Of a stretch of DNA of 64,000 bases, positions 1,870-54,075 are shown in pieces (the first letter of the stretch is position 1; every line of letters begins with the position of its first letter). Below the pieces are notes generated by a model. The model made no database searches. It had not been told where the DNA came from and was given only the letters and a program-made list of their open reading frames with translations. Source of the DNA: Mya arenaria (lineage: Eukaryota; Mollusca; Bivalvia; Myida; Myidae); the NCBI RefSeq assembly GCF_026914265.1, contig NC_069132.1, forward strand, positions 34,652,932 to 34,716,931. Reading direction: 5' to 3'. The translations under genes were made by a program, and so were the position numbers.

Positions 1870-2933
1870 TTAACAAGCGTGCATCAGCACTCCTGAAAAG
1901 CTAGAGTGATGTCTGTCGGTACCATATGTGCCGGCAACGTGACCTTCACTGACAACATACAGGGCTTCTAAGTAGAGGAAGGCCGTTTTTCCTGCAATGT
2001 TCCATCCAGAAGTGTGTCCTGCGATAGAATAGTCGATGACTTCAGAATTCTTCTTAAAAAACATTGCTCCCGGTTTTGCAATTGAGTTGCCAATGGCAAA
2101 TTGAAACACGTACGTTCCGTTTAACTGGGACGTGAATACGCAACTATAAGCGTTGTAAGCGTTGCCGACGTTGTCCTGAACGGTATCGAAGACGACAGTT
2201 TGTTGAGTGGTCAAGGGCAGCGATTGTTTACAAAGTTTTGCTCTGAATATGATCTTGTTTGTTGTACGCAAAGGAATGATAAAAATAATGAATCATAAAA
2301 CCGAATTTTCCGTGTCTAAATGTGCCCTAAATAAATTTCAACATGATCAGATGAAAAGCTAAATTAAAAAGATGTGACTTAACTGAATTAATGTTTCGTT
2401 TCTTATTAAATTCGAAGTGAAATGAATGGTAGAATATTGTTTAGGATGAATTATCTTTGCTGACTTGGTCCTCATAATAATAATACACAATATTGCAGAA
2501 TAACTGGAAAGATGTATATCTAAGAATGAAAAGTAAACAAAAACACAAAATACAACTATCACAAAATAGTTTCTGAAAACTTATATCCGTTAAGTATATC
2601 TTTCCGTAAGAGTATCTGCGGCGGCAGCTATTCGTTCGTCGATGTTGGAATTGTCCGCTTTGTGCTTTTATTTCATAAAGCCTTTTTTCAAGGGCAACAA
2701 GACCAATGTTGTTATTCTTTGCAGACGACAGCTGCTTTTTTAAATTCTTCGTTCTCCTTTTGTTGCAATTCGTTCGTTTCAGTGCAATTTGCAGCTTCAC
2801 CGATTTCCCTCAGTTTGCCGTATAGAAAATCAAGGCTAGGGCATTGCGCATCACAAGACGCAGCCAGGATATAAACAGCTTGGGTTACAAATATCACGAA
2901 GATTGCCATGATCATAATGATACTCTTTATCAT
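1870..2933 (-). pseudogene. C1q-domain protein gene, probably decayed
   Basis: The 3' part (1870 to about 2260) encodes an uninterrupted C1q globular domain of about 125 residues. It has the family strings FDTVQDNVGNAYN, GTYVFQF, TSGWNIAGKTAFLYLE and a closing HHSSFSGVLMH. The 5' part (from 2933 downward) starts with a Met and a hydrophobic signal-like segment (IIMIMAIFVIFVTQAVYILA). A Cys-containing coiled-coil stretch follows, as in secreted C1q-domain proteins of bivalves, which act as soluble recognition or adhesion proteins. The coiled coil is spread over three frames: one shift lies in the A-run near 2725 and another near 2650. No convincing donor follows, and the acceptor before the C1q part is weak. 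I infer a pseudogene, but assembly errors in a live gene are possible. Confidence 0.62.
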
Positions 2934-3347: not shown

Positions 3348-4349
3348 TTTAACTGTTACAGCCGCATTTTTATCTCAATCTTTTTGAAACTTGGTCAGAG
3401 TTTGCATCTCTATAAAATCTAGGACAACCTCACTATATCTTTTGTTTCTTGATGGTTTTATTTTTGCAAAATTATATATATATACCTTTAATAAAAAATA
3501 TTTGCTATATAATACCTCTTTGTTGGTGCCTTTCACGTTTACACATAATTCTTAACATTAATTATAAACAAAATGATTTTAAAAATCTTAATTGGCTAAA
3601 AACACCTTAATAAATATTTCGAAGTCCGAAATACAATAGTATGCGTTCGTTGACTCTTCCAAAAAAAATCTAGCAATGTCATACTTCTAAATAAATCACT
3701 TCTTTTTAAGAGCATGTAAACATAAAAATAAAACGTTAAAATATACGCGTTCACACAATGTTTACACATATCAATGTACATTATGCAAGAAATATTTTGA
3801 ATTCAGATATTTTTATCTCTCCGAGCAAAATCGAACTTAAAAACATAATAAAAAACTACGTGACAATTGACAAGAGCTTACCCGACTCCCATGGGCCGGG
3901 TCGGTAGGCAGTTGTTTTATTATTTTACTTCCTTTACCGTGAAATCCGTTATGAAAAGGGAAAATAAATAATTATGATTACCAGTGACAGTGGTCAGGTA
4001 TTTGTTAAAGTTAACAACGTTGTTAACGTCATAGTTGTTAACTTTCAAATCGTTTCTGCTTCGGAAAATTAATGGATACACTTGTGATCTGCAGTATTGC
4101 TAGCAAGATTATAGACAACTGTTTCAGCTGTACCTGTTTCATTTCAATACATGATCACATCGTCAAACAGTTCACCTTTAAAGATTAACAAAGATTTTCT
4201 AAAACGTCATCCATCGCATCAAACAAACTTCAAATTAGCTAAATGGCCGATTTGGTAACAACTGGACGATTTAAGGTGAAAGGTAATCTAGAGTCCTGAA
4301 ACAGACTGGCAGTATCAGTCAGAAATGGAATAACATAATTGATATAATT
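3348..4349. other. Intergenic with one dispersed-repeat copy
   Basis: No gene recognised. About 4005-4195 carries a dispersed repeat also seen at 25840-26215. Shared strings include a gttaac-rich start, a 'ctgcagtattgctagcaagat' type centre and a 'tgatcacatcgtcaaac' type end. Confidence 0.5.
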
Positions 4350-4455
4350 ACAGCCGAAGCTCGTTTGCTCGAACTTCCGGGGACCGACGAAAATACCTCG
4401 AGTCTCGGGAAATTCGAGCCAAACGAGTTCGAAGCAACGGGGTTTCGACTGTTTA
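4350..4455. mobile_element. Short MITE with CAG-type inverted ends (pogo/Tigger-like)
   Basis: The left end reads acagccgaagctcgtttgct. The right end, reverse-complemented, reads acagtcgaaaccccgttgct. The terminal CAG and the TCGAA-rich inverted ends resemble pogo/Tigger members of Tc1/mariner. The element lies about 100 bp past the stop codon of the CARD gene. Similar ends occur at 39382-39557 and 43090-43260. The assignment rests on end sequence only, since there is no transposase. Confidence 0.55.
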
Positions 4456-4551
4456 TACTTTTGTTTTTAAAATTATATCAAAATCACTGTCCGACTGATA
4501 CTGCCACCTTCGGATTCGTTAAAATCGTCCCGAGCCTTCGACATTCGTTTA

Positions 4552-7500
4552 TCAGATGAACGGCCAACCAGCCTTGCCCGTAGTTGACGTCTTTTTGGAG
4601 CCATTTCTCTGAGGATCGAACTTGATCTCGGACTGGTACTTGACGTTGGCGTGGTGCGAGCGGTCCATGATACCATTCATCCAGTGACTCCGGGGCGGCG
4701 ACATGACGCGCCTCTGGCGACCCGGACGGCGCGGCGCCTGCTCAAGGTTCATGAGACGCTCTTCCAGCGAGACGAGGCGGCTCTCGCCGGCGCGCTGCAT
4801 TTCCTCAAGAGCGTCTATCTGATCCCGCTGCCGTTCCTTCTCCTCCACGAGGGTGGAGATCTGTTCCTGCTGCAAGTTCCGCTCCATGATCCCTGGAAGG
4901 CAGATACAGAAGTAAACTTAAATCTATGTTCCGAACGTACACACCATTAAGGGGTCCAGTTAATATTGGTAATGGTTTAACAAGTAGTTTCTTGTGTTAA
5001 TGAACTGTTAACGTCATAGAGACATAGATAACAATATAAAGCCCTTAATATTAAGTAACTTGCATACGTTCACCCATACATAGGTACACTCGTCCCACCA
5101 ACGTTTTCCCAACAATCTAAAGTATACCCAACCTATTCGTCTCAATATATAGAACGCCCTCCAATGTGCTATTGTACATAATTATGTACATCAATCTGTC
5201 GCATCTCTCTACATTTTAACCATTTAATAAATTAACATTAAGTTGTCACGACCTCATTATTTTGATTCACCCTGAACATACAATCTAACTACTTCTTTTG
5301 TAATGTAAACAATATTTCAAAAATATTAGATTCACATTCGCTTTTCTGAGTATAAAATATACGCCCAAAGATCCCTCTCCCGAACTAAACCTCCATACCC
5401 AATCATGACCCCCATGACACAGACCTTTACTAGTTCATAGATGCCATTAATAAAAAACGTCATGACTACCAAACCTACTCATCATTCATCCCACCAAAAA
5501 ACAATCCTCTAAATAAAACCCAAATCGTTCCCTACCTTCGTCCTGAAGCTCCTCGAGTTTGTCAATTTTCTCCCGCTGGGCGGCGTTCTCTTCCTCTATC
5601 TCTTCCAACTTTCGAAGCTGTGAGTTCAGCTCCGCCTCCTTCTCCTCCAAGGCGGCGCGGTGCTCCTCCAGCCGCCGCTCCATGGATTTCAGCTCAACCG
5701 CCTTCTGCTGCAGCTCGTCACCGCGCACGCGCCCCGCCTCGCTGTTCTCCTAAAATGGAAGGGAAGTAATTGCGGTTTACGAAATAATGCAACGTAGTAC
5801 TTGTTGAAGACTAAATGGTTAATCGCAATACAGGCATTTTGACAGTCACGTGATACCTTTGGATCATCAGATTGTGTTATTTATGTGTGTACACTCATTT
5901 CAGTTTTGTGGGATAATAAAGAACAAACTTTGAGGTGTTCTTCGAGATATTGAAACGAAAATCAAGATAGAAATTTGGTCCATACCTTCAGGCGTTTGTT
6001 ATCAAGTTGCAGCTGTATGATCTTTTGCTGAAAAGCGTTCAGTTTCTCGATTAGGGATTTGTTTGTCTTTCGGAGTCGCTCGTTCTCCTCTTTCACTTTC
6101 TGCAATTCCTCGTCGCTCGTCGGAAGCCCGCCGGTCGTCTGCTGATGTATCTTCTTAAATAAGTCTCTAATGGTCGGAGCTATGCGTACCAGTTCCTGCT
6201 CAAGAACTTTCATGTCCATCGGCGTGTCCGATCCCTTGGTTTCACTGGTTCCGCTTCCGGTGTTGTTTGGTGTCACAGCCGCCTCGCGCTCCCCGCATAC
6301 AGACGCTTGTTGTGGGGTATTCGCGGCGGACCCGAACTCTTCAGTGGACTCCGAATTAAAGGACGAAAGCGATATCGTGCTCTGGCTTGCTCGACCTGAC
6401 GATGCCTCACTTCCGGCGGCCATGCGGCTCTCAATGAACAGGGCCTGTGGAGTGCTGCTGGCTGATTCCGCTCCCATGCTGCTTTGTTGTGACGTCACTA
6501 CAGGTGGCGCCGACGCATTGGACACAGGGACATGCACGGCCGGCTGGGGCGCGACCGTAGCGACAGGGGCCTGACCCATGACGTTGTGGGGGCTGTCGTC
6601 AGAGCGGAAAGTCTGCAGGTGCCGTCTGTGTTTTTCTCCAGTCTCGCTGTTGATAGTGCCACTGCTCTATAACATGTGAGGCAAGTTGTTAGAATAACAC
6701 GACGTTGACCAGAAAAAGGTATGATTGCATAGAGGGCATTCAAAAACTATTTGTATTTGAAACTTATTGAGGATAAAATACATTCAAAATCCATTTTGTT
6801 TAGGTCTTTCTACGTTTTACATTTGTTGCTTAAATCAGCTTTAATATTGAAAAACAGCAACATGAGAACAATATATATATTAAAAAAAGGTATTCTACTT
6901 ACGGTCGCAGTTGACGGTCTTGAGTCTGCGGCTGAAATGAAAAAGGAAAAGCAGCTGGTGTTAAACCCAAAACTGAAGATAAAATCTTTATAACTTCAGC
7001 ACACCTTGTACTGGAACAACCGTTATCGTAAATTTCATCAAAATGAATAAACTATTAATAGTCATTTCAAAATAAATAAATAAAAACGTCTTACGGTGCT
7101 GTGCATTATTTCCAGTGACTGGGCGTCCTGTTGGGGCGTTGTTACCGTGATTACCCGCTATACCAAGCGCCTCGGTGACCCGGGCGAATCGATTGTCTGT
7201 TTGCTCGGTGAGAAAGCGACAAAGCGCCTGGTAACCCGGACTTCCGGATTGTATCACAGCGTTCAAGAACTTCTCGGCTGAATTAAGAAAGTTTAAACTT
7301 TGAATTGTGTTATCCTCCGTTTTGGTCAATCGATAGGCATTAGTCAGTTTGGCGTACTTTTCTGTCATTTTATATACTTTTAGTCATTAAATATATTACT
7401 GTTTTACACTAAAACAGACAAGTATTTTTTAATATTTCATATATCAACATATTTTATCACAAGCAAGTTCGATCATAGGAAAGTGCACTTGACTATACGC

Positions 7501-9101
7501 CGTTTTGTCTAAGACATGAATACAATAATGATGTAGTATATGCCTGTCAAAAGCAAAAAAAAAGAGTAAAATTAACAAGTAATCAACAAACGCCGCAATG
7601 CGATGACTGGTTTCCAATGATTGACAAGAGAACTTCAACCTGCGTTGTGAGATTTATTTTCAACTGGGGGGGGGGGGGGGGGGTATCGTTAGTAACAGTG
7701 ACCTTGACTTTACCCTTTTGGTATCTAACGCAAAATCATTTAAGTCCTGAATAACACTTCCTGCATACCAAGTTTGACAATAATATTGTAATTGTAAATA
7801 GAAAAGTTGTGAATACGATTTTATATATCTATACATGTTGTTTTTTTAATTCTGGTTCATGCTTTAAGCTTCAACAGCATCAAGAAAAACACAGCCTCAA
7901 TCATATTTACCTCGCGCATGCGCAGAGGACAGAGTTATCTATGAAAGTCAAACGACTGTACCAAGTTTCATGTCGTCTGACAAGATATGCTCTACTGAAA
8001 TATATATGTTTGTTTTTACCGTCAAATCTGCTCTACATGATATAGAGCTACAGTAAATGGGTTAGATCCTCCATTGTCATTGGCCCACAAGTTTGAGCGA
8101 ACACCAATGAATTGCATTGCAGCTTTTGTTCGGGGAAAAAATCCACGCGTGTTGAATACAACCTCCCGGATAATAAAATCAGTACTAATTACCCTGTGGT
8201 ATTAAAAGGCAACTCATTAAGATCCAATATTAAGACTTTTTTTTCAAATTACCAAATTGCAAATTGTTTTTATCATTCAATACCATCCATTCTGAAATTA
8301 ACCGAAATGATTTTAGAAGCTTAATTCAAAAGCTGCCCTCTTTAATTGAATTATTAGGAAGGAGTTGACACATTGTAATTACTTTCGTCTAATTCTTTGT
8401 GTTCCAATTTCTATTTCGATCTAGTTATTTGAAAGGCGTTTCTACAAATTGGTTCTAAGTACTTCAGAAATAAAATATTACAACTTGACAGTAAACCCAA
8501 GAAGAGGACTTTCTGTGTGTGTGTTTTCGAAAGTGTTGAGGTTTACTCCGAAATAAAAATTTGAATCAATTGACAAGCTGTGAAACAAAACAAAAACACA
8601 TTGTTGTTGTTGTTGTGTTTTTTTACTTTCGCTTCACTGTCTGCGGTCTAAGCACAAATGCTTAGTATATTTTCTGCTCGATCGGCAAACATCTGCCTAT
8701 ATCTATTGCCGATCCGGAAACATTTGTCAATATTAATTGCCTGATCGGGAATTCGTTGTCTATTTATTGACAGATCGGGGAAATTATATAAATATTGACT
8801 GCCTTGATGTTAACAGTGCATATTGTCAACCTGAGGTAAATACTGTCGACTTAGCGAATTTTCAATTAGGCTTGACTTCACATATTTTAAAAAGGGAATG
8901 CGTTATTTAAGATGTTTTTTTTTTAAATGAACCTCTCATGCTTGGTGTATTTGGCAGCACGTTGGTGATCTCGGACCGCTGTGTAGGCCCCAGGACACCC
9001 TCGTCCACGAGGCGATGCACGAGCGCCTCTACCGGAAGTTCCGTCTTCAGAAGCGTCCAGTTTCGTCGCAGCCTCCTCTCATCGTCACCCGAGATTGCCA
9101 T
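4552..9101 (-). CDS. CARD plus coiled-coil protein, 6 exons, 538 aa
   Basis: Exons: 9101-8933, 7277-7095, 6931-6903 (29 nt), 6666-5986, 5749-5536 and 4892-4552. All introns are GT-AG, phases agree throughout, and the total is 1617 nt with the stop. The start has a good context (acaATGG). Residues 1-98 form a CARD: helix 1 RRLRRNWTLLKTEL, helix 2 EALVHRLVDEGV, helix 3 QRSEITNV, helix 4 AEKFLNAVIQSG, helix 5 YQALCRFL, helix 6 ARVTEALG. Residues about 100-300 are Ser/Thr/Pro/Gln-rich and look disordered. Residues about 315-485 are heptad-rich coiled coil, followed by a basic tail of about 55 residues. CARDs bind other CARDs, and coiled coils oligomerise, so a scaffold or adaptor role in innate immune or cell-death signalling is likely by inference. 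CARD9/11 share CARD plus coiled coil but lack this long linker. The specific family is not recognised. The gene starts 890 bp downstream of the ZP gene's stop on the same strand. Confidence 0.88.
7664..7683. repeat. Poly-G tract
   Basis: About 19 consecutive G within intron 1 of the CARD gene. It is a simple repeat and a likely polymerase-slippage site, so its length may be inaccurate. Confidence 0.9.
8675..8815. repeat. Imperfect 37-40 bp tandem repeat
   Basis: Three to four degenerate units contain 'gatcggcaaacat', 'gatccggaaacat', 'gatcgggaattcg' and 'gatcggggaaat', each followed by a 'tat..att..c' stretch. The array lies in intron 1 of the CARD gene. No function is evident. Confidence 0.6.
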
Positions 9102-9992
9102 TGTTTATGAACGTTTCCGTGACAAGTTTATGTACCACTAACGATCCCAGCGTTTTTAGCACCGAGCGTTCTTTCGTTTATTTCAGGCGTTTTAAAGTAC
9201 AGCGCTGAACATACGTAACCTTACTATTACGTCAAAGTTAAAGCGTGTGTATTATTAAATCAATATTTTTAGTTGATTTACAAAATAATAAAACACAACA
9301 AACTTTCTGCTTAAAACAGCCTTAAACTATTGTAAAGATGAAATGGTTAAATTGTTATTCTATGTTTTTCCGTTCACAACCTTCAAAAAGAAGTGTTCAT
9401 ATTTTACAGTTTTCGTTTTATATTCCATCTTATTAATTTTCCTCATTGAACATTTAACTTTACATGAAGAGGTGAATACATCTATGTTTAAGATAATGCA
9501 GACTGTTTATTAACAAAAATTCATCAAATTTCCGTTTTCTGCCTACACTTCCTAAATAATAGATCGAACTGAGTAATCAATATAATTAATTGGATAAAAC
9601 ATCTGTAATGTATGTCATTGGAACCGCAGTATACGACACGGCCTTTGTTTTAATGCCGTTTTGTCTTAAAGCCAAGATTGAGATTATAATCAGCTCTTTG
9701 ACGGAGGGGATTGATTAAAATATCATTGAATATGATACACGAGTCTTGCAAATTGTTTACAATGAACAAAATTGGTATTGTTCATTGTTTGTAAATATCA
9801 AATCGCAAAGTAATACTTGAAAGGTGATATTTTATAAATTTCGTTGCATGAACATAAATTAAAAGGGCGCACGTATTGAATATTAGTTGAAATCAACTCT
9901 CAATACGTCTATAGGAAAGACAATGTGATAAAGATGAACAAATTGGTGCAGTTTGGGCAATTTATTCCTTTTATTCAATACAAGTAATTCGA
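9102..9992. promoter_or_regulatory. Spacer between ZP gene stop and CARD gene start
   Basis: An 891-bp AT-rich interval on the shared minus strand. It must hold the CARD gene's 5' UTR and probably its core promoter, but no clear TATA box or initiator could be fixed. At its far end, two AATAAA motifs on the minus strand (9961-9966 and 9970-9975) lie 18-32 nt past the ZP stop codon and are good polyadenylation-signal candidates. Confidence 0.45.
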
Positions 9993-12900: not shown

Positions 12901-15900
12901 ATGAAAATTTGCGATCTTTTGTCAGCGGTATTTTATTATTGGTATTCAGATATTTACGGAAAAATTTGCTCTTTCCAAGACAAAAAAATAAAAAAGTTGT
13001 AAACTTGGTAAATCTGTGAGAGTGCAGCTTTAAGGATTACGGACCCTAATGGGCACTATTAACAATTTAATGGAAACTTATCTTATTCAAATATATATTA
13101 TTAAAGCAACTTATTTCCAGATTTAAAACACTTTTTGCCATGTTTAACTTGAGATATTCATATTTGAATATGGTACCGCCCACCCCCAACCCCAACCTCC
13201 CAACCTCGGAAAATGCAGAAAATAAAGGATTCCTATGTTACAAAACCATGTCTATATTTTATAATTATTACTGAAGAATATCCAAATATATGTTTAATAG
13301 TGAGCTTTCATCACTTTAATGAAAATGAAATTCTAAAAGCTAAATTATTTTCATCTTTTACTCTTTATTATCATAAGTGCTTCAAAAAGATCTCCGACAA
13401 TGCCTATTTTTTCCGAAAACTAAAATCATGTGCTACTATTTTCTACTTTTTAAAAGAAATCAGTTTCAGTACAATGAAAATAAAATTGATATTAATTATC
13501 TACAACAATAAAGAAAACTAATGACCAAACAATGTTCGGGTACGGTAGGCATTGGAAATGACGTCCGTGTACTACAGACCGACTTTTATTGACCTTTAGT
13601 GGGTAAGATTTTGAATCCTTTAAGTCCATGAAGTTATTTTATAGAATTGTCAATAAGTTAAAGACTCTACAAACGGGTGATCAAAAAATTAAAGTGTTAG
13701 AAACGACGTCGTCGAAACCGGACAACGTAACCAACGTGTCAGAGGTGATTCGCAGACGACACGCACAATTTCCGAAAGATTTCCAATGATCATGCGGCTC
13801 ATTATGATACAATTATCGTAAAAGGCTATAACACCGTACCAAAGCGCACGTGGCAGACCCTGCTTTACAAATGCGAACGCTGCATACAAGTGTGACGTCA
13901 TCATGGGCGATGAACTTGAACACCAGTAAGGTCGTCTTGACGGTCGACCGGCTGCCTCCGACGGCGGAAAACGTCTGGATAAACTTAGTTGACCTTGTGC
14001 ATCTAAGGAAATAAGAGAATGACATTTTGAAAACAACAAAAAAATGATATAAACAAAAAAACTAAAAGTGACTGTCACATGTGGAAACATGTGAAAGACT
14101 ATCCAATGAAGGTGTTTTAAGAACAAAATTGCGTTCATAATTGACCTTTGACCTAGTAACCTCCAAAAGGGTGTCATCGCTGGCCATTTAATTTAATAAT
14201 ATTTTATTGCATAGTTATAAACATTATTACAATTGTCAAAATATTTACATACATGTTTATAGAAAAGTTTGAAATAAATGTTATCAAAGTTGTATGCAAA
14301 AGGGTCGGGCCACAAGTTATCAACAACATTAGTTACGGCCCTCCCCTTATAGTTTCGTTAGAGTTAACAAGATGATTGGTATGTAAAGTAGTATATGCTA
14401 AAAAGAGCATAATGCATAATATGCTAAAAGTATATAATGTATTTAATTTGTGAATTTGCGTGTATAAGTAATATTCGTTATATTATTAGAAAAAAGAGAA
14501 GAAACACAACATTGTATCAAACAAGAAAATGAAGAATTGATATTAGAAGAAGAAAAAGAAACTGACGAGAGAAAAAAAAAGGACAGAGAAAAAACATATA
14601 AAGGAGACAAAAGCACACACCCCAACCACAACCCTCACATAGCGTTACATCAAATGTTACAGCGCTTATGCTTCCACATGGCTATTTACTATTTCGTATA
14701 CTCGCTTAGGTAGTTTGCTGGTGAAATCTTCCGGTATGTTTAATATAGGCTTGGACTTGTTGAAAGAGTTTACTATTATCGTCATCAGTTAAACTGTCTA
14801 TACCATTCAGGAGTTTATCAGGACTTAAAGGGTGATAGGGTCTAGTTTTTGTAAATAAAGTTAATCTCGCATTTTCATATAAAGGACATCTGAAGAAATA
14901 ATGTTCAGCATCTTCATAACTATTGCCACATTCGCAAAATGGATCGTCACGTAGAAAGTTGTTAAAAAGATCTGCATGAAGATTGCTACATTTGTTTCTT
15001 ATTCGAGTGTGTTGAATTTGCATTAATCTCTCACCATGATAGTAGTAGTTTGGGACTGTTGGGGGTTTGTACATCTTTTTAAGCTGATATTTAAAAGCTG
15101 CTAGTGTGTCAGACATTTTTATTTCTGGGTTAAGATCATTCCATAATTTCGCTGAGGATGGTATCGTGGAATTAGAATACATTTCAGTTCTTCTTGCCAG
15201 TGTTTCAAGGTTATCATTATTTCTAAGATTATATGGGGTATTATTTCTAACAAGTTGAGGCATATCGTCAATTAAATAATGTGGCAAGTAACCTCCCTTA
15301 TATTTATACATCAATATTAGTTTTTGCATTTTTCTTCGATCAGCTAAAGATACCCAACCTATTTCATTTAATAAATTGTTAATAGAGACGGAACGGGTAA
15401 GTCCAGTGACTAGTCTTGCCGCCTCATACTGAATTCTTTCTAACATGTCTTTCTCATATTTAGTGCAATTGTCCCAGACTATTGACCCATATTCTAGAAT
15501 TGGACGAAGGTATGAAATATATATTTGGTTAATAGTGTTCCGCTTCAGTTTATATTTAAGTAGTCTCATAGAGCCCAATACTTTGCCTGCAGAATTAATT
15601 ATAGAGTTAATATGTTCATGCCATTTTCCATTCTCACTAAGTGTTACTCCGAGATGTTTATGGTGTTCAACATAGTTGAGTTGGCTGTTATTGAAAATAA
15701 GAGTTGGACGGTTATCATTGGTTCTTGAGAAGAACATAACTTGCGTTTTAGCAGAGTTAAAAGTTATGAGCCATTGCTCTGCCCAACGATGTATTTTATC
15801 AAGATCATGATTCAATGTACGTTCAATGTAATTAACATCAGTTGAAGTAACAGCTAGCGAGCTATCATCAGCGAAGAGGCGTGTTATACTTAATAACGGA

Positions 15901-18900
15901 TCAGCTATATCGTTAATATATATAAGGAACAATAAAGGGCCTAACACGGACCCTTGAGGGACTCCAGCATTTATTGACATTTTTTGAGAGAATGATGATT
16001 TTACAAAAACCCTTTGAGATCTACCTTGAAGGTAACTTGAAAGCCAATTTAAAACATCACCATTGATACCGTATTTTCTTAATTTAAATAATAAACCTTT
16101 ATGCCATACTCTATCAAATGCTTTACTAATATCACAGAATACAATACATCGCTGGCCATTAACAACCTTCCATTGAAGGTACAACCATTCCATACGTTGT
16201 CCGCAGCCTAGTGACTCCCAACACAATAGTGGTCATCTACTGGTCTAGGGCATCTATCACTGAAGTTTGACATTCCTACGGAGAAAGTTGTGTGACGGAC
16301 GGACATACGTTTGCACGCACGGACAGTGCAAATACTATATGCAACCGCTCAGGGGGCAGACAACACTCCAAATCAATACAGATTATTGAATCTAAATTGC
16401 ATTTTTCTGCTCTGAATATCGAAATGAATTGTTTCTTACCCTGATTCGTCTGTGAGTTGGATAAAGTTGGCCCCACCCACTTCTTTGCCCCCGTAGCCTA
16501 TACAATTGTAAGGCAACAGGTCGTACTGGCCTGAAAAATTGATCAATATAAAATAAAATCCTAAGTACGAAGTTAAAGGAAAACTATTTTTTATTAAAAG
16601 ATTACTTCTCTCAATACATGTAGTTGTGAAAAGCTGGCACCAAGAACCGAATTTCTCAAAAAAATCTTAAGCGTCCCAGATTTTAATATCTTATTTCAAA
16701 AGCAAAAATAATTACTTGAGCTTGGATTTAAAATTTACAAAACGAAAAATACGTTAACCTGATATAACTTTTCAGAACGCCTGATAAGGCCTTAAATTGT
16801 TTGAAAATTTAGGGGACCAACATGTAGCCACCTCCATGAATGGCGACAAGGACGACAGTAGCCAAACAAACTACGGCAGGATCGAGGCGCAAATTGGTAT
16901 CCTTGACCTTTTAAGAATTATAATAATATACGTCATCATCGGAAGCGACATTCGGAACACCTCGGCCATTTACCATTTAAAATAACTTTGGATGTATGCC
17001 GATACATTGGTAGTAGTTCGTTATATTTTTAACAAAATGGTATTTAAAAAAGTGTAGTGCTTTAAATGTATTTGTATTACTAGATTTAAATTGATTGCCA
17101 ATAAAGTGTTTTATTGCGTAAATGATTAAGATTCCCAAGAGTAATGTCATTAAGTTAAACAGCTAGATTGAAATTACTACGCGATCTATTTAAAGCGTAG
17201 TTATAATAAAGATTTCTGACATTGTAAACCGTCCATATACATCCGAGGTTGTTTTTTATGGAAAATGGCCGAGGTGTTTCGAATGCGGAGTCGAACGGCG
17301 ACAACGACGAATAAGTTAAAATACGAAATAAAGATGATGATTTTGAATGTGTATATGTATTATCAAAGGGTGAGAGAACTATATATACTTCACAACGAAG
17401 CTATCAGTTGTTTCGGCATGTTTCGATATCCATTAGATGGATCATGAGAAACGTCAAAGAAACCTAATGCAACATGTGATTTATTTCTTAGGCTGAAATA
17501 TCGACAAAATTTATAAAATTGCCAAAGCCGAAAACATCCATGAAAAATAGTGTTTACTTGCCAGCAGGGCAATTTTTTTTCTTCCCATTTTGGGAAAAAG
17601 ACACTAAACATTTTGGGAAAATTTGCGTTGCGAAATATGCCGAAATTGGGAAATTTTACAGTTAAAAAAACAAGCTTTTCAGTCTCCTGCAAATGATAAA
17701 ATTATTGAATATTAGTTTTTTCCCTTTCAAAAGACCTGAATCTGCTGAAAAAATTAATCCTTGGGGTGTAAATTTCTATTTTAAAAAATCAGGACAGATA
17801 AGAGTTCATGCTGATCTCTGAATGTGATGAAAATCAACGATTTCTAAATTCAGTTATCCCCAAAACTTTACAGCACATAGTTTATTAGGATGTTGAATGA
17901 ACCATAACAGGTTTAAAGTCTTTCATGAAAAAACTTTTAATTGGGAATTTTTTCTGATGAATGGGAAAAATATTTTTTATTTTGCTTTGGGAATGGGTTC
18001 GATAGTCGGACCCATGGGTACTATTGAAGAAGGCCTGGGGCCGTATTCAATAATGAAGAAGGCCTGGGGCCGTATTCAATAAGCAATTTAGTAAATATTT
18101 TCAACAAAGTGAGAATTTCGTAATTTTTGACAACGATTATTTTAAATAGCTGCTACTTTTCATCCGATTTATTCATATACATATACTGTTTAGATCATTT
18201 TCTTGCTTATTTTCATGGTGTACAAATGAGAAAAAAAGGCAATTTTTCACTTAATTGAAAATTGTTACGAAGATGCTTACTGAAAACGGCCCCTGGTCAT
18301 TAATAAACACTTACTTGGTCCAAGTATTTTCCATACTAGCGCTTCCCCGAGAGTGGCAACGGAGACTTCCTGTACCATGTCGGAGTCCCAAAGAGAGGAT
18401 GTGAGGGTAAAGGTCGGAGTGACGGGGGGATTGGGCGTCACAGTGGTCGTCGGCCCGGTTTGCGGCGCCTTGGTCGTGGAGGCGACAATGCTGAAATGTA
18501 CGTACACGATTGCCTTACGCGGCTCGAGATTTAAAATATATATAATTATATTCAAACATGTTAAAGTGACACTCTTATTCAAAATCAATTCATACACATG
18601 TATAACAAACATCAATTTTGATTGATAAACCTTTATCTACTTACTAAATAATGCCTTAATGGAAAATATGTGTTACTGATAACAAGATTATAACCGTGTA
18701 CTTGATTGCACAAAGCGCAAAAATATTAAATGATTGGTGAATGCTTAAATATTTAATGTGATCTATTATAATCTAATAAGGTAGAATTTTATGAGCATTT
18801 ATTTCAAATTTAACTCGGTTTCCTTCACAAAAACCATTGTTTTAGACATTTATTCATTCTTTTTGGAATATTAAAACAATATCATTAATTGTGGTAAATC

Positions 18901-23588: not shown

Positions 23589-24655
23589 GAGGTCAGCACT
23601 TAGTAACTTGAGGCCACCACTTAGTAACTTGTGGCCACCACTTAGTAACTTGAGGCCACAACTTAGTAACTTGAGGCCACCACTTAGTAACTTGTGGCCA
23701 CCACTTAGTAACTTGAGGCCACCACTTAGTAACTTGAGGCCACCACTAAGTAACTTGTGGCCACCACTTAGTAACTTGAGGCCACCACTTAGTAACTTGA
23801 GGCCACCATTTAGTAACTTGTGGCCACCACTTAGTAACTTGAGGCCACCACTTAGTAACTTGAGACCACCACTTAGTAACTTGAGGCCACCACTTAGTAA
23901 CTTGAGGCCTCCACTTAGTAACTTGTGGCCACCACTTAGTGACTTGAGGCCACCACTTAGTAACTTGAGAACACCACTAAGTAACTTGTGGCCACCACTT
24001 AGTAACTTGTGGCCACCACTTAATAACTTGAGGCCACCACATAGTAACTTGTAACCATCACTTAGTGACTTGAGGCCACAACTTAGTAACTTGTGGCCAC
24101 CACTTAGGACACAACTAAGTAACTTGTGGCCACCACTTAGTAACTTGAGGCCACCACTTAGTAACTTGAGGCCACCACTTAGTAACTTATTAACTTGAGG
24201 TCACCACTTAGTAACTTGTGGCCACAACTTAGTAACTTGTGGCCACCACTTAGTAACTTGAGGTCACCACTTAGTGACTTGAGGCCACCACTTAGTAACT
24301 TGTGGCCACAACTTAGTAACTGTGGCCACAACTTAGTAACTTGAGGTCACCACTTAGTGACTTGAGGCCACCACTCTTAGTAACTTATTAACTTGAGGTC
24401 ACCACTTAGTAACTTGTGGCCACCACTTAGTAACTTGAGGTCACCACTTAGTGACTTGAGGCCACCACTTAGTAACTTGTGGCCACAACTTAGTAACTGT
24501 GGCCACAACTTAGTAACTTGAGGTCACCACTTAGTGACTTGAGGCCACCACTCTTAGTAACTTATTAACTTGAGGTTACCACTTAGTAACTTGTGGCCAC
24601 AACTTAGTAACTGTGGCCACAACTTAGTTACTTGTGGCCACAACGTAGTTTAGCC
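23589..24655. repeat. 21-bp satellite array, about 50 copies
   Basis: The unit is ccacttagtaacttg(a/t)gg, total 21 bp. It is regular at 23589-24050, then broken by short indels and duplicated blocks to 24655. The regular part stays open in one plus frame as a repeated PPLSNL(R/W) heptapeptide. This reflects the period, not a gene. It lies in the intergenic space between the ZP gene start and the PGGHG gene stop. Confidence 0.97.
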
Positions 24656-26359: not shown

Positions 26360-29300
26360 TTATCCAACTATTTCCACCGGTACATTCACCCCGAACTGTC
26401 CAATGGGTAATTTTAAGGTCTGGTAACTGCTAATAGCCAGCGGCTGGCTAGGCATGTCCACAGGAACGCCAGGTCTCAAAGGAATTATCTCCCTTGTTAG
26501 CGATGTGTGGAGATAGAGTTGTCGCCCATGAGATGTTCGGACAACCTTGGTGATTCTGTCATCACAGGAAATGTCCAAACTGTTTCCAAGGTAATCGAGT
26601 CCCACGATGCTGAGAAAGATAAGAAATTTAGTAGTTATAGACGGCAAACAACTACTAAATTTAGGCTTTCTCAACGGCCTATCAAGTGTAGTTCAGTCTC
26701 ATTTGTAGAGGTATAAGGTATTAACAAAATCGCAAACAATATCATTTAACCAAATAATAAAAAAGAAGTAACGATTGAGCTTTTAAGATAAAAGGCTCAA
26801 ATTTTCAAGTTGTTCTCGACTACCATGTTATATTATAAGAGCAAAGAGACTATAACTTTACTAACAGACGAGCTTTTATGGAATAGTGTTACCTTGGAAA
26901 TAGTCTGTGTTTGTCAGCACAACATTCGATCTTGAATGTCCAATGTCCAATGTCGTATGTTTAGCTAACTTCACACAGATAATCTATTTGACATTGGACA
27001 TTGGTATTTCAAAAATGAATGTCGTGCTAGCACGACATTGGACATTGGACATTCGAAATCGAATGTTGTGCTGGCACGGCATTGGACATTGGACATTCAA
27101 AAATGAATGTCGTGCTGGCACGACATTGGACATTGGGATTTCAAAAATGAATGTCGTGCTGGCACGACATTGGACATTGGACATTCAAAAATGAATGTCG
27201 TGCTGGCACGACATTGGACATTGGGATTTCAAAAATGAATGTCGTGCTGGCACGACATTGGACATTGGACTTTCAAAATCGAATGTTGTGCTGGCACGAC
27301 ATTGGACATTGGACATTCAAAATCGTGCTGGCACGACATTCGTTTTTAAATGTCCAATGTCCAATGTCGTGCCAGCACAACATTCGATTTTGAATGTCCA
27401 ATGTCCAATGTCGTGCTAGCACGACATTCATTTTTGAAATCCCAATGTCCAATGTCGTGCCAGCACAACATTCGATCTTGAATGTCCAATGTCCAATGTC
27501 GTATGTTTAGCTAACTTCACACAGCTAAATATAACAGTTCTTCCGTCGTCATTCCCCCATTGACTATGACATTTTATTTTTACAAATAAGGCTCGATGTT
27601 TCTAGGGGCATCCCGCAGCATGCTCCCCAAGATTTGTTTTATTTCAAGAAACCGAGTTTTCAAATATATTTCACAATGGAAAGTCCATTACTTTATAAAA
27701 GTATTTGCAGGCCTAAACTAGTGGTATTTTTATATAAAAGTGAATAGTGAATTACATTTAAACACTGTAAGTCCGACAAAGTCGGGACCCAGATAAACAC
27801 TTGGGAAAACGATATTTCGGATTAACAATTATTAATTTTATTAGAAAATGACGGCGTACGTAAATTATTAGTGACGTGAAATATTTAGAAATAAAATCTA
27901 GACTGAAAATATTTTTTTGATAGGGATACTTTCGGATAAACGGTGTTTAAATGCAGTTTAAAGTTTTAACTAATGAACTTTGAATTCTTTGAACTACGGC
28001 ATGTATAAATAGCTGATATATTAAGGCTGGTTAAGGAGATTCCTTGACATTGGCTAGTATGTATGTGTTAACCATTTAAATAAGAAATCTGAGGGTACAT
28101 TCTTCACATATAAATATGATGCTGCTTTTATGTGAACAATAACAACACAAGACCAACCTTTTAACCGCGTTAATTAATTAACGGGACCTTTAATATTCTC
28201 CCAGGTTTATTCTACCTGATGCCTGTTGAGCCAGGAACAGGGCGGCAGTGTAGGGCGAGGCGGTCGGCGTATGGACGGACGCCCCCGTATCCGTGGATGA
28301 TGGACTGCAGGTAGCCGCCCTGGCCCGTGATAAAGTTGGTTACACCACCGCCGTCCGCATCCTCAGTCCAGATCTTAGTAAAATAAATGTATTTTTTGTT
28401 TTTGTAGTTGTTATGGTGCTATTTTTTTTTATTTTCAAAAAAACTCTGTAGATATGCTATCGATCTACGCTAGATGATAAACATATTTGGTAAAAACATA
28501 TAGGCTATCGATCGACGCTAGATAATATAACATATTGATCGAAGCTAGTTAAATAGGCTATCAATCGACGCTAGATAATATAACCTATTGATCGACGCTA
28601 GATTATATAACCTATCGATCGAAGCTAGATAAAATAGGCTATCGATCGACGCTAGATAATATAACCTATCGATCAACGCTAGATAATTTATGTCATCGAT
28701 CTAAGTTAGATGATATAATATATCGATCGACTCTAGATAATATGGTCTATCGATCTAAGCTAGATAAAATAGGCTATCGATCGACGCTAGATAATATAAC
28801 CTATCGATCAACGCTAGATAATTTATGTCATCGATCTAAGCTAGATGATATAATATATCGATCGACTCTAGATAATATGGTATATCGATCTAAGCTAGAT
28901 AATATAGGCTATCGATCGACGCTAGATAATATAACCTATCGATCAACGCTAGATAATATATGCCATCGATCTAAGCTAGATGATATAATCTATCGATCGA
29001 CGCTAGATAATATGGTCTATCGATCTAAGCTAGATTATAAGTATCTTCCATGGCCGAGAGTGTAAGATAGGTCCATTCCGACCCGAGCATAGGGTGTTTT
29101 GTGGAAACGAGGTTTACACGAGCGGCTATGGTAGATGCTTTTTCTCCCACCTCAGTTAAACAAAATTAAGTAAAAATGTATTTTTTTTGCTGGAACTCTT
29201 TTGTGCTTAGTGAAACTAATTGCGTATGGATATGCGATAATTCGTGGTTGTCATGGATATGAGCGCAGTGATTCAGAGTATGTAAATTGTCTGATCGGTC

Positions 29301-31250: not shown

Positions 31251-34200
31251 ACTTCATGACAGGCCCTACCGTTTTGCCTGTGTGGGTTAACATGTAAGAT
31301 TTTATGAGGTGGTTACAACAATAGATATGTCACAAGGTACATGGACATACACATTTGGCTGACTTGCCCGTGTTACATGGACATACACATTTGGCTGACT
31401 TGCCCGTGTTACATGGACATACACCTTTGGCTGACTTGCCCGTGTTACATGGACATACACCTTTGGCTGACTTGCCCAAGTTTCATGGACCTTTGTTACG
31501 AGGACATACACCTTTGGCTGACTTGTCCGTGTTACAAGAAGATACCTTTGGCTTTTGATTTGTATGTCCATTCTACAAGGACATTCACCATTTGCTACCT
31601 ACACCGTTGACGTACTTGCCGATGCTTCTTTGACATACAGCTTTGACTTACTTGCCCATGCTTCTAAGACATACAGCTTTGGTTTACTTCACTGTCGACT
31701 TACTTGTCAATGCTTCTAGGAAATACAGCTTTGGCTAACTTGCCCATGCTTCTAAGACATACATCTTTGGTTTACTTCACCGTTGACTTACTTGTCCATG
31801 CTTCTAGGACATACAGCTTTGGCTTACTACACCGTTGACGTACTTGTTGATGCTTCTAGGACACACAGCTTTGGCCTACTACACCGTTGACTTACTTTCC
31901 CATTCTTCTAGGACATACAGCTGTGGCTTACTTCACCGTTGACTTACTTTCCTATGCTTCTAGGACATACAGCTGTGACTTACCTCACCGTTGACTTACA
32001 TTCCCATTCTTCTAGGACATAGAGCTTTGGTTTACTTCACCGTTGACTTACATTCCCATGCTTCTAGGACATACAGCTTTGGTTTACTTCACCGTTGACT
32101 TACTTTCCCATGCTTCTAGGACATACAGCTGTGGCTTACTTCACCGTTGACTTACTTTCCCATGCTTCTAGGACATACAGCTGTGGCTTACTTCACCGTT
32201 GACTTACTTTCCCATGCTTCTAGGACATACAGCTGTGGCTTACTACACCGTTGACTTACTTTCCCATTCTTCTAGGACATACAGCTGTGGCTTACTACAC
32301 CGTTGACATACTTTCCCATTCTTCTAGGACATACAGCTGTGGCTTACTTCACCGTTGACTTACTTTCCCATGCTTCTAGGACATACAGCTGTGGCTTACT
32401 ACACCGTTGACTTACTTTCCCATTCTTCTAGGACATACAGCTGTGGCTTACTTCACCGTTGACTTACTTTCCTATGCTTCTAGGACATACAGCTGTGGCT
32501 TACTACACCGTTGACTTACTTTCCCATTCTTCTATGACATACAGCTGTGGCTTACTACACCGTTGACTTACTTTCCCATTCTTCTAGGACATACAGCTGT
32601 GGCTTACTTCACCGTTGACTTACTTTCCCATGCTTCTAGGACATACATATGTGGCTTACTACACCGTTGACTTACTTTCCCATTCTTCTAGGACATACAG
32701 CTGTGGCTTACTTCACCGTTGACTTACTTTCCCATTCTTCTAGGACATACAGCTTTTGTTTACTTCACCGTTGACTTACTTTCCCATGCTTCTAGGACAT
32801 ACAGCTGTGGCTTACTTCACCGTTGACTTACTTTCCCATGCTTCTAGGACATACAGCTGTGGCTTACTACACCGTTGACTTACTTTCCCATGCTTCTAGG
32901 ACATACAGCTGTGGCTTACTACACCGTTGACTTACTTTCCCATTCTTCTAGGACATACAGCTGTGGCTTACTACACCGTTGACTTACTTTCCCATTCTTC
33001 TAGGACATACAGCTTTGGTGTACTTCACCGTTGACTTACTTTCCCATGCTTCTAGGACATACAGCTGTGGCTTACTTCACCGTTGACTTACTTTCCCATG
33101 CTTCTAGGACATACAGCTGTGGCTTACTTCACCGTTGACTTAATTTCCCATGCTTCTAGGACATACAGCTGTGGCTTACTTCACCGTTGACTTACTTTCC
33201 CATGCTTCTAGGACATACAGCTGTGGCTTACTACACCGTTGACTTACTTTCCCATTCTTCTAGGACATACAGCTTTGGTGTACTTCACCGTTGACTTACT
33301 TTCCCATGCTTCTAGGACATACAGCTGTGGCTTACTTCACCGTTGACTTACTTTCCCATTCTTCTAGGACATACAGCTTTGGTTTACTTCACCATTGACT
33401 TAATTTCCCATGCTTCTAGGACATACAGCTGTGGCTTACTTCACCGTTGACTTACTTTCCCATGCTTCTAGGACATACAGCTGTGGCTTACTTCACCGTT
33501 GACTTACTTTCCCATGCTTCTAGGACATACAGCTGTGGCTTACTTCACCGTTGACTTACTTTCCCATGCTTCTAGGACATACAGCTGTGGCTTACTACAC
33601 CGTTGACTTACAAGGGTATACAGCTTTGGCTTACGTGTCGATGCTACAAGGACATACAACTTTGGATTACATGATTATGGATTTATTAACTGAAGGAGGC
33701 GAACAATCTTTTATGGTGAATATACACAATTTCACCCTCGAAATTACATATGGATAAATAATTCCCCGTGTTCATTTTGCAACACAATCACGAGTCTTTT
33801 ACACATTAGTATGATTAATATTGCTGGCTATTAAACAAAAAAGCGTTTAAGTGTCAAATATATATACGCATGTTTGTAGTCAAAACAAAATTACACAGTA
33901 AAACTGCGATCGCTCGAGGTCGCCGGGGACCGAGCCTAAACCTCGAGGGAACCGATGTTTCGAACGATCCGATTTTCAATTCTCCAATCTGTTATGAAAA
34001 ATATTTCAGTGTATTTTAAGTATGAAGTAGTCTGTTTACTTAGACACAGAATATGTGTTGCGTTGTGAAAATCGCTCATATGTTCAAAGGCTGTCGTTTA
34101 CTATATGTTTACTAAATATAAAATGTAAAAGAAATATCAATAAATCAATAAATAGATATTTTTTACAAAATGGCCATATTGCAAAGCAAAGTGACAAAAA

Positions 34201-48138: not shown

Positions 48139-48909
48139 CTCAGATACCCTTAGTCTGGTTCCCTGCTTACTGATATTCCATACAGTGTAAGGGGAAGGTT
48201 CTCCAGGCTCAGATACCCTTAGTCTGGTTCCCTGCTTACTGATATTCCATACCGTGTAAGGGGAAGGTTCTCCAGACTCAGATACCCTTAGTCTGGTTCC
48301 CTGCTTACTGATATTCCATACAGTGTAAGGGGAAGGTTCTCCAGACTCAGATACCCTTAGTCTGGTTCCCTGCTTACTGATATTCCATACAGTGTAAGGG
48401 GAAGGTTCTCCAGACTCAGATACCCTTAGTCTGGTTCCCTGCTTACTGATATTCCATACAGTGTAAGGGGAAGGTTCTCCAGACTCAGATACCCTTAGTC
48501 TGGTTCCCTGCTTACTGATATTCCATACCGTGTAAGGGGAAGGTTCTCCAGACTCAGATACCCTTAGTCTGGTTCCCTGCTTACTGATATTCCATACAAT
48601 GTAAGGGGAAGGTTCTCCAGACTCAGATACCCTTAGTCTGGTTCCCTGCTTACTGATATTCCATACCGTGTAAGGGGAAGGTTCTCCAGACTCAGATACC
48701 CTTAGTCTGGTTCCCTGCTTACTGATATTCCATACAATGTAAGGGGAAGGTTCTCCAGACTCAGATACCCTTAGTCTGGTTCCCTGCTTACTGATATTCC
48801 ATACAGTGTAAGGGGAAGGTTCTCCAGACTCAGATACCCTTAGTCTGGTTCCCTGCTTACTGATATTCCATACAGTGTAAGGGGAAGGTTCTCCAGACTC
48901 AGATACCCT
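48139..48909. repeat. 69-bp minisatellite, about 11 highly similar copies
   Basis: Unit 'agtctggttccctgcttact' + 'gatattccatacagtgtaag' + 'gggaaggttctccagactcagataccctt'. Copies differ at only one or two positions (acagtg, accgtg, acaatg). The minus strand stays open for 290 codons as a 23-residue repeat containing SESGEPSPY and VWNISKQGT. Each unit holds a 7-bp inverted repeat, ccagact / agtctgg, around an 11-nt loop. The array starts exactly where the kinase reading frame stops. Confidence 0.96.
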
Positions 48910-49946
48910 ACGCATAGTCCTTGTAAATGCTGTCAATTCTTTTCCATATTTGACACATGTAGGTAATGTCTGGTCTATCTGCCGGATTGAGGCTTAGAGC
49001 CCTTTTCTGCGTAACACTGACGGTATGGTCAATATGGACACCAGAGGTAACCTTGGGTGTGACGCCCTTGGTCCCAACTTCTTGAAGCAAGGTTGTGTAC
49101 GACATGTCGAAGTATGGCTCCTCGTCAAATAACACCTCATGGAGTAGAAGCGCGAGCGACCAGATATCCGCTTTCATCATATCCGGTATCTTCAGGACTT
49201 CCCGAGACAGGACTTCCGGTGCGGAGTATCTCGGAATCGCAGACTTGTGAGTTATTTTGGCGTCAGCTACTGATGACGTTGCATCAACGTTAATTTTAAC
49301 TTGGCGGAGTCCGAAGCCGGACAGTTTTGCCACGCATTATTTGCCTTTCTTGTAATTCAGTAGCACGTTCTTAGGTTTTAGGTCTGCATGGGGCATATTT
49401 TGTGAATGCAGCTATTTCAAACCTTCACACATCTGGCGAATTATTTGCAAGCGTTCGTTTTCGTTGGTCAATATCGTATCTCAGATGTAAAGGGTCATTC
49501 AACGCCATCGACATATACTCCATGAATATGCAAATGTTCGGACTCTCTTCACAGAACGCCATGTACCGGACAATATTTGGGTGTGATATACCACAAATGA
49601 GATCCATTTCTTTACTGAAGTCTCTAAGTCTTTTGTTTGCCATTTTCTCACGAAGTTTTTTTATTGCCAGTACATTGCCCATTCATACTCCAAAGAAAAC
49701 ATCGCCAAAGTTGCCATCACCGATTTGACTTCGCAATTCAAGTTCCGTATATGGGAGGGTCCCCTTAATGCAGGACATTCCTGTAAGGTTCTGCTTTTCG
49801 AATGATTTCTTGCTTTTTAGCCAATCAAGCTCCTCCTTTTGCCGGTAAATTCTGTACAGAGCCTGTTCAAATGCGACCTTGTATGTATCCTCAGAGATGC
49901 CCGGAAGATCCACACGGATATCTCGGTTGCTGCTGAATGATTTCAT
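48908..49946 (-). pseudogene. Protein kinase domain exon, degraded pseudokinase
   Basis: The exon opens after an acceptor (cgtcttccag) at 49946. Readable kinase parts in order: IGDGNFGDVFFG (Gly loop), LAIKKLRE (beta-3 Lys), HPNIVRYMAFCEESPNICIFMEYM, HADLKPKNVLLN (catalytic loop, HRD to HAD), AKLSGFGLRQ (DFG to SGFG), RYSAPEVLS, ADIWSLALLLHEVLFDEEPY, then a C-lobe ending DSIYKDYA. Three in-frame stops (at the Trp position after FFGV; before LHSQN; before CVAKL) and one frameshift near 49480 interrupt it. Even intact it would lack the usual catalytic Asp of DFG. It looks like a tyrosine-kinase-like (TKL) serine/threonine kinase relative. It is probably the second part of the pseudogene begun at 60839. 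Confidence 0.82.
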
Positions 49947-51516: not shown

Positions 51517-54075
51517 GAACAGAACAGAACAGAACAGACAGTTTATTCGACTTATACATGATTGTGTACATCGTCGTAATACATATAGTTATGCATATAA
51601 ACATGTCACGTATCTAAACTTACAAACATAATATAATAAAATAAAATATAAGCAAAAATATTATGAAAATTGAATAACAAATAATTATTATGTTAACTTT
51701 GGCAGTGAGGGAATGTTTCATAACTACTATATCAAGTTAAATTATTTATAAGTGAGTTGCGTATAACAAATGATTCTTTAATATATTTACAAACATTCAT
51801 AACTTCCTTTTTATCACATGATACCAATAATTGATGGAATTTGAATACAGATGGATTAACATAATAGCATCGTTTTATATAAGTTACGCGTAACTGACGA
51901 TAGCATGGACAAATACATATGAGGTGATATTCATCCTCTATGTCCCTACTATTACAACATAAACAATATCTCTCGTTACGAGGTATATTATTACGTGCAT
52001 AACGTCCTGTTTGTATTCTTAAAGGGTGTGCAGAAACTCTCAATCTAACAAAGTATAAACGTAAATTCTTTGGAACTAAATCTAAATATGTTTCACAATC
52101 AAAGGAAGTTTTGAAAATTCTATGCATATCCAAAACAGAACTGTTACTAATATTACCATACCATTCTTGTTTAAATGTATCTATAATTCTACATTTAAAT
52201 TCGTTTATAAGTACATTAACATGCACAATATTTGGGTTATCAAATACGTATGCAAAACCATAATCATTTAACAGTTTTTTTTTACCTTAGAAACCCAGTT
52301 TATATAACCCTTATTACAGTCATCAATGGCCTGTTTATACACGGACTTTATTTTAATGTTATTACTGTTGCAAATCTTAAACCAGTATCTCATAATTCTT
52401 ACATATCGATTAATGAATAAAGGGTATCTACCTAGTTCTCCATACACTGTAGCATTACATGTGTTTATTTTAACGTGTAACAGTTGCTTACAAAATTTTA
52501 AATGTATACATTCTATTTCTTTTGACTTACTAAAACCCCATATTTCACAGGCATAATTCAATATTGAGCCAACAAAAGAATCAAATAGTTGACAAAATAT
52601 TTTAGGTTTAAGGTCGTATTCTTTGCATTTATATAATAAAGTATTCATGGCTATAAGAGCTTTTCCAACTAAATGTTCTTGATTCAATGTAAAACTTCCA
52701 GTGTAATTTATCACAGCACCTAAATAATTAAAGTTATCAACAACATCGATAGCTTGGCCATTATATGTCCAATGCTCGTTAAGACGTATTCCACCCCGTT
52801 TACGGAAAACCATTATTTTTGTCTTTGATGTATTTACATTTAATCCCCATGCTTTGCAATACGAGGAAAGAGTGTTTAAATGGTTTTGGACTTCCTCTGG
52901 CGATTTCCCTAAAATGGCCATATCGTCAGCAAATAGCAACATAATTAATACAATGTCATCAATACTTAAACCGGAAGTTATGCTATCTTGCATGTATAGT
53001 TCTAAGTCCTCTACACACAGGGAAAAAAGAATCGGGGACATAACCTCCCCCTGGCACAGGCCAACGGCATAACTAAAGTATTCAGAGTAAGATGAACATG
53101 ATTTCACACAAGATTTAACATTTTCATACATATATTTCACTATTCTAAGTAATTTACACAACTTAAGCCACAGAGCATTGCGATAAATACTATCAAAACA
53201 CTTCAACATGTCGACATAATTAACATATAATCTTTTATTATTATTGATATATATTTTTGCATAATAGACATAAAAAATATAAATTGCGTCAACTGTTGAG
53301 CAACCTTTTCGAAATCCGAATTGTGCATCCGAAATAGTGGCATTAGCTTCAAAAAATGACTCAATGCGCTTATATAAAATTGTTGTAAATACTTTTGAAA
53401 AACAACTAACAAGTGTAATTCCTCTATAATTATTGACATCATTAACAGAACCTTTTTTATGGAGAGGAATGATGACACCTTCTGTCCACTTTTCTGGAAA
53501 AAACCAGACGCTAAAATGCTATTAAATACATCACATAAGTGGCTTGTTAATATGTCAGCGCATTCAATAAAGTACTCATTTAATATACAGTCGCTACCAG
53601 CCGATTGATTTCGTTTTAAATGCTTTATTGCGTTACTTACTTCAATAATAGAAATGGGTTGGTCTAACTCTGGAAATGTAGAGTTATCTTCATCAAAATC
53701 ATTACTTGAACAAAACTGTTCAGCCTCGTCGTTTTTGCAATCAAACGTATTGTTGCTAAGATTTTTAAAAAATGTTTTAAAATCTTCCAAAGGGATATTA
53801 CAATTGTTAACTTTATTTTTTATTTTTTTTTTTTTTTAAATTTCCAAAATTCTCTAGGTTTATTTTACCTTAAATTCTCAATATCCTTCATTTTTTGACG
53901 ATAAGCAAAGTTTTTCTGTTTACGAAGTAAATCTTTATAAGACTTCTTTTGTGCACACAGACTAGCTCTATTGATATCGGTTTTATTCGAATTAAAAATA
54001 TGTAAGGCTTCTTGGTATAATCGCCGTGCATTAACACATTCATTATCAAACCAATCCGCTTTTTCGTACAACTAT
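51517..54075 (-). mobile_element. LINE, 5'-truncated, with pentamer 3' tail
   Basis: The 3' end carries a minus-strand (TTCTG)n tail at about 51517-51541. From it upward: C-terminal region with a CLCCNSRDIEDEYHLICICPC knuckle-like motif (51732-52226), RT palm and thumb (52268-53209; QGEVMSPILFSLCVEDLE, catalytic FADDM, NYACEIWGF), and RT start region (53203-53790; SAGSDCILNEYF). A piece upstream of RT (53865-54071) follows. At least three frameshifts or stops separate the pieces, and ORF1 and endonuclease are missing. It is a sister family to the next LINE, sharing DIEDEYH and LNY(A/G)(C/S)E(I/V)WGF. The clade within CR1/jockey-like LINEs is not settled. Confidence 0.85.

Follow-up and report, generated by a model that had tools for sequence, protein, structure and literature searches.

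What might a protein do that joins an N-terminal caspase activation and recruitment domain (CARD) to a C-terminal coiled coil by way of a long linker, and to which of the known CARD systems, if any, does it belong? The question is raised by a gene on the minus strand at positions 4552 to 9101 of a 64,000-nucleotide (nt) stretch of Mya arenaria DNA (contig NC_069132.1), which was analysed as a whole and is called the window below. The parts of this protein are familiar, but as predicted they are arranged in a way that sets it apart from the known CARD9/CARD11 family. The protein probably gathers CARD-bearing partner proteins, and the probability that it is a scaffold whose CARDs are clustered by the coiled coil, possibly for initiator caspases, is put at about one half.

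The gene and the order of its domains

The six-exon gene looks real. The exons, of 169+183+29+681+214+341 nt, join in frame, as the sequence-only reading had proposed for this place; on the minus strand they code for 538 amino acids and a stop codon, all introns having GT-AG borders and the phases fitting throughout. The start codon lies in the context AACAATGG and a stop codon in the same frame is found at 9107; G+C is 0.55-0.62 in all six exons versus 0.29-0.35 in all five introns. Exon 4 stays open for 227 codons, which at the stop frequency of the window would happen by chance with a probability of 8.8e-7 per start, and none of 5000 shuffles of it remained open. Retention of any single intron, in all five cases, brings the frame to a stop inside that intron. 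Computed skips of exon 2 or exon 4 leave the frame intact (477 and 311 residues, respectively) and those of exon 3 or exon 5 break it (139 and 379 residues); the predicted 139-residue product of exon-3 skipping would keep the CARD and lose the coils. A scan of positions 4551-3300 for AATAAA or ATTAAA gave three matches, the first AATAAA being included among the features of the gene, which are as follows:

8933..9101, minus strand: exon 1, start codon and residues 1-56, the first half of the CARD with three helices; ends in phase 1, donor AG/GTTCAT, G+C 0.59
7278..8932, minus strand: intron 1, 1655 nt, within the CARD; G+C 0.34, the CARD match spanning the junction
7095..7277, minus strand: exon 2, residues 57-117, the rest of the CARD (up to about residue 98) followed by linker; G+C 0.55
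6903..6931, minus strand: exon 3, a 29-nt micro-exon within the linker; donor GTAAGT
5986..6666, minus strand: exon 4, residues 128-354, the remainder of the linker (to 276), an amphipathic stretch (279-303) and the first coil (309-354)
5536..5749, minus strand: exon 5, residues 355-425, the second coil segment by heptad score
4552..4892, minus strand: exon 6, residues 426-538, the last coil segment (to about 476), a basic tail and the stop codon
3916..3921, minus strand: first AATAAA 3' of the stop codon, a consensus match only

The identification of the CARD depends on the joining of the first two exons. Residues 1-99 match the Pfam CARD family PF00619 with E 7.4e-5 and 23.1 bits, just below the gathering score of 23.9, in an alignment of residues 9-86 to positions 2-77 of the 85-position model (76 positions covered). 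No Pfam family was matched at E <=1 by either exon taken singly or by the halves in exchanged order, and four out of four shuffles gave none at E <=10. Since the match appears only across the joined halves, it supports both the domain and the junction 8933/7277. A model built from 18 known CARDs, searched in 1749 sequences that included 200 shuffles and the open reading frames (ORFs) of the window, recovered the domain, as spliced, at E 1.4e-5 and the whole protein at E 7.6e-4, the next rows being the ORF of exon 2 (E 0.13) and an unrelated ORF (E 1.7). Structure prediction from single sequences was also run on each half by itself, and the helices are thus seen per half and not in the joined domain. 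Exon 1 gave helices at residues 5-17, 24-33 and 39-48, with a mean predicted local distance difference test score (pLDDT) of 77.8 and a predicted template modelling score (pTM) of 0.48; the exon-2 part gave helices at 58-67 and 70-98, with a mean pLDDT of 76.6 and a pTM of 0.41. Over both halves this makes five helices, where the sequence-only reading had counted six, the last of them long and lying at the place of the CARD helices H5 and H6. Such separate folds agree with a CARD and do not prove one.

The linker, residues 99-276, is 178 residues long and consists to 69% of S/T/P/Q/G/A/N, a Ser/Ala/Thr/Pro-rich composition of the disordered type. Heptads were assessed by a simple score against shuffles, with no trained coiled-coil predictor, and on this scale the linker has no heptad pattern, its score being reached by 2995 of 3000 shuffles, while the scores of 279-303, 309-354 and the exon 5 segment 355-425 were reached by 11, none and 4 of 3000. 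The segment of exon 6 (426-476) prefers the register of exon 5, and the tail that follows it (477-538) has a net charge of +10. The order that had been read from the sequence beforehand, namely CARD, disordered-type linker and coiled coil, is upheld. Pfam matches beyond the CARD are of coil type or due to chance, all of them under their cut-offs, the best being CASP_C at E 0.0027, and no protease, death-domain or NB-ARC family was matched in the 538 residues at E <=10. A scan for short motifs found five of TRAF2 type versus 2.5 expected in shuffles, from which nothing is drawn, and no match of TRAF6, P.Q.T or pLxIS type in the protein.

The kind of CARD and its place among known systems

The CARD was compared with a panel of 18 known CARDs, 12 of them with unverified sequences. 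The best pairwise Z values were those of caspase-2 (6.3), CED-3 (5.8), caspase-9 (4.4), RIPK2 (4.4), APAF1 (4.3) and RAIDD (3.9), followed at lower values by CARD11 (2.4), NOD1 (2.2), caspase-1 (1.9), BIRC2 and NOL3 (1.7 each), CARD9 (1.0) and BCL10 (0.8), with the remaining members lower still. Among four group models, that of the initiator group (caspase-2/CED-3/caspase-9/APAF1/RAIDD) scored best by about 20 bits, with 25.9 bits, the others being at 5.9 bits and E 1.3 (CARD9/CARD11/BCL10), 4.5 bits and E 3.3 (NOD1/RIPK2/BIRC2/NOL3) and 2.3 bits (CASP1/ASC/NLRP1/NLRC4); ten variants of the initiator model with three members each gave 13.6-22.8 bits. The CARD thus leans weakly towards the initiator group, which may serve as a lead. 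The absence of a CARD9/CARD11 likeness is firmer than this lean. With CARD9 or CARD11 removed, the model of their own group still gives them 83.4 and 80.8 bits, respectively, and a phmmer search of the Protein Data Bank with the gene's CARD returned no CARD, including CARD9 and CARD11, in the best 60 of 66 matches at E <=10, which comprised lysozymes and two retinol dehydratase rows with a best E of 0.087, at the level of chance; in the control, CARD9 finds CARD11 by phmmer at E 6e-27. The closer resemblance to the initiator group than to CARD9 or BCL10 may hint at the control of caspases no less than at NF-kB immunity.

Proteins of the CARD and coiled-coil type (CARD-CC; CARD9/10/11/14 and their invertebrate homologs) share with this protein an N-terminal CARD and a C-terminal coiled coil. 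In CARD9 the CARD is followed by a linker at residues 98-111 and then directly by the coil, and an interface between CARD and coil keeps CARD9 off (PMC6624267). The structured linker of CARD9 is thus 14 residues long, whereas the disordered-type linker described here has 178 and the first coil-like stretch begins at 279, so that the difference from CARD9 and CARD11 on which the earlier reading had insisted holds good. The present CARD is also not of CARD9/CARD11 type, being at noise against the CARD9/CARD11/BCL10 model, and membership in CARD-CC was rejected on both CARD type and linker length. Because the 178-residue stretch separates CARD and coil, a latch like that of CARD9 seems unlikely.

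The prodomains of caspase-2, caspase-9 and CED-3, together with RAIDD and APAF1, are among the nearest CARDs by pairwise Z, along with RIPK2, and form the best of the four group models. Oyster caspase CARDs are encoded by two exons, as are those of vertebrate caspase-2 and caspase-9 (PMC7836458), and the present CARD is likewise split over two. Members of the initiator group carry a protease, death or NB-ARC domain, whereas this protein has no such match and has coils instead.

Two further systems offer a partial likeness. In MAVS the CARD is followed by a long low-complexity stretch, as it is here, and in BCL10 by a Ser/Thr-rich stretch. A MAVS-like reading was rejected, as the protein has no membrane-type stretch and no C-terminal transmembrane segment (largest 19-residue hydropathy mean 0.67), and membership in a BCL10-like class was rejected on the pairwise Z of 0.8 and the 5.9 bits of the CARD9/CARD11/BCL10 model.

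Relatives of the same architecture were sought in several places. No protein outside CARD-CC with the order CARD, long linker and coiled coil was found in the open-licence literature, a weak negative that covers titles and abstract openings, and none is described in the available parts of PMC8195603, PMC3634015 and PMC11747288. Five stretches of viral contigs matched a pattern, none of them a relative. Within the window no second copy was found, tblastn returning the exons of the gene itself plus three matches at E 1.7 to 6.5, one of which is exon 3; nor, with either of the CARD models that recognise the domain (two in all), did any ORF of the window outside exons 1-2 have an E under 1.

A candidate scaffold and its alternatives

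From this architecture, which is what is observed, we infer oligomerisation, recruitment between CARDs, the class of the partner and a role in cell death or immunity. Association of the C-terminal coil segments with one another (279-303, 309-354 and about 364-476) would hold several CARDs close together on flexible tethers of 178 residues; once clustered, the CARDs may nucleate a CARD partner or draw it in through CARD-CARD contact. The likeliest class of partner, by CARD resemblance only, would be an initiator caspase of caspase-2/9 type or its adaptor, activated by proximity. The caspase partner is a first guess, made because of the CARD resemblance and the two-exon split, and BCL10 is its main alternative. 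The product of exon-3 skipping is a possible built-in inhibitor.

Several findings weigh against a scaffold for initiator caspases. The weakness of the CARD is one, as the domain, which the sequence-only reading had called canonical, proves divergent: its 23.1 bits are below the Pfam cut-off and compare with 60.8, 76.2 and 79.6 bits for three known CARDs, and with all 538 residues as query the CARD is absent from the Pfam matches at E <=10 (a query of 276 residues retrieves it at E 7.6e-4). A Foldseek search with the exon-1 half gave 90 matches at E <=10, none of them significant, and among the best 50 of these the one CARD chain, 6j52, stood at rank 43 with E 5.7. To the unverified sequences of the panel is added the presence among the best pairwise matches of RIPK2, which lies outside the initiator group. 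The initiator model is itself unselective, since seven of the 13 panel CARDs from outside the group exceed the 25.9 bits of the gene's CARD (BIRC2 42.7, NOD1 36.4, BCL10 33.4, MDA5 32.0, CARD9 29.3, NOL3 28.8 and CASP1 27.8), and leave-one-out grouping misplaces four of the 16 classed CARDs, namely BCL10, BIRC2, CASP1 and NLRC4. The coil segment of exon 6 is weak when taken alone, its score being reached by 330 of 3000 shuffles. Lastly, caspase-2 may already have a platform, because homologs of PIDD in two clams and of RAIDD in a mussel have been reported (PMC7836458).

Some of these findings lend weight to other explanations. The protein may be an ordinary structural coiled-coil protein, with an N-terminal helical domain that is a degenerate or repurposed CARD and has no CARD partner; the weak CARD score is as expected from this, and so are the sub-cut-off matches of the remainder, of coil type or due to chance (the best being that to CASP_C). 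This explanation is nonetheless unlikely, the CARD match covering 76 of 85 model positions and both CARD exons being open and rich in G+C. A little less likely again is a regulator that restrains caspases, in which the CARD would occupy that of the partner in the manner of CARD-only inhibitors and the coil would serve for location or self-association; the 139-residue product of exon-3 skipping would be such an inhibitor. The computed skip, which keeps the CARD and drops the coils, is in keeping with it, and regulators made of a CARD alone are known as a class (PMC7555848); however, the skipping is a prediction from sequence, any frame-shifting micro-exon would do likewise, and the NOD1/RIPK2/BIRC2/NOL3 model is at noise.

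A derived member of CARD-CC, comparable to an invertebrate CARD9, with a CARD that has diverged and a linker that has lengthened, and recruiting BCL10 together with a paracaspase, is improbable. It has the same order of CARD and coiled coil on its side. Molluscs are reported to possess Bcl10 and a paracaspase of the Bcl10 type, and invertebrates with Bcl10 to possess CARD-CC homologs; the available part of the same source describes no mollusc CARD-CC protein (PMC5978004). Against it stand the gap between 5.9 bits and the 83.4 and 80.8 bits of the left-out CARD9 and CARD11, the phmmer result beside its control, and a linker of 178 residues against 14. The least probable explanation is that two neighbouring genes have been joined in error, of which exons 1-3 would make a small CARD protein and exons 4-6 one with the coiled coil. 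The CARD and the coils do lie on different exons of a model derived from sequence, and an internal in-frame Met in exon 4 could start a shorter product, but consensus-like donors end exons 2 and 3 (GTAAGA and GTAAGT, respectively), AG acceptors precede exons 3 and 4, the phases fit throughout, and read-through from exon 2 or exon 3 stops in the intron.

A scaffold for initiator caspases, if that is what the protein is, would bear on a reported gap in oysters, the lack of an APAF-1 that has a CARD. Among bivalve caspases with both subunits, nine of 46 have CARDs, all nine being nearest to caspase-2 (PMC7836458). The APAF-1 homolog of oysters is reported to lack a CARD, and no CARD-bearing APAF-1 had been identified in Mollusca to the date of that report (PMC5550854); a survey of oyster genomes likewise names Apaf-1 as one of those it did not find (PMC8917759). 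If the window is from such an animal, the gene would be a concrete and cloneable candidate for gathering CARD caspases. The gap is maybe narrower than it appears, in that a squid study lists Apaf1 (PMC9389742) and the PIDD and RAIDD homologs mentioned above are reported from bivalves. The most specific form of the idea, a coil-assembled platform on long tethers that clusters CARD initiator caspases without an ATPase wheel in an animal that lacks an APAF-1 with a CARD, as oysters are reported to do, and in which the 29-nt exon 3 switches between the activator and a CARD-only inhibitor, is a long shot. Were the protein unrelated to caspases, it would still present an architecture of CARD and coil that departs from CARD-CC in both CARD type and linker.

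Other features of the window

Just downstream of the stop codon, a stretch of 200 bp (4307-4506) has inverted-repeat ends of 17 nt that are 94% complementary, like a small inverted-repeat transposon; its 14-nt core has no further copy in the window at <=1 mismatch. An ORF with a C1q domain (1870-2292, minus strand; Pfam E 1.5e-10) lies about 2.3 kb downstream of the same stop codon. Farther away, the minus-strand ORF 35694-36107 matches glycosyl hydrolase family 65 at E 6.2e-6, just under the cut-off, and we take it to resemble PGGHG/ATHL1. Two reverse transcriptase ORFs on the minus strand (14706-16232 and 52268-53518; Pfam RVT_1 at E 2.3e-23 and 3e-32) presumably represent LINE-type retroelements. 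A tandem repeat at 48139-48909, with a 69-bp unit in 11.2 copies and 98% matches, lies inside an open frame of 309 amino acids, which is adjoined by the minus-strand ORF 48908-49336 with a match to a protein kinase family (PK_Tyr_Ser-Thr, E 5.7e-7). Long minisatellite arrays are also present, with a 52-bp unit in 36 copies at 31731-33611, a family of 21-bp units at 23589-24649 and a 27/135-bp array at 28498-29039.

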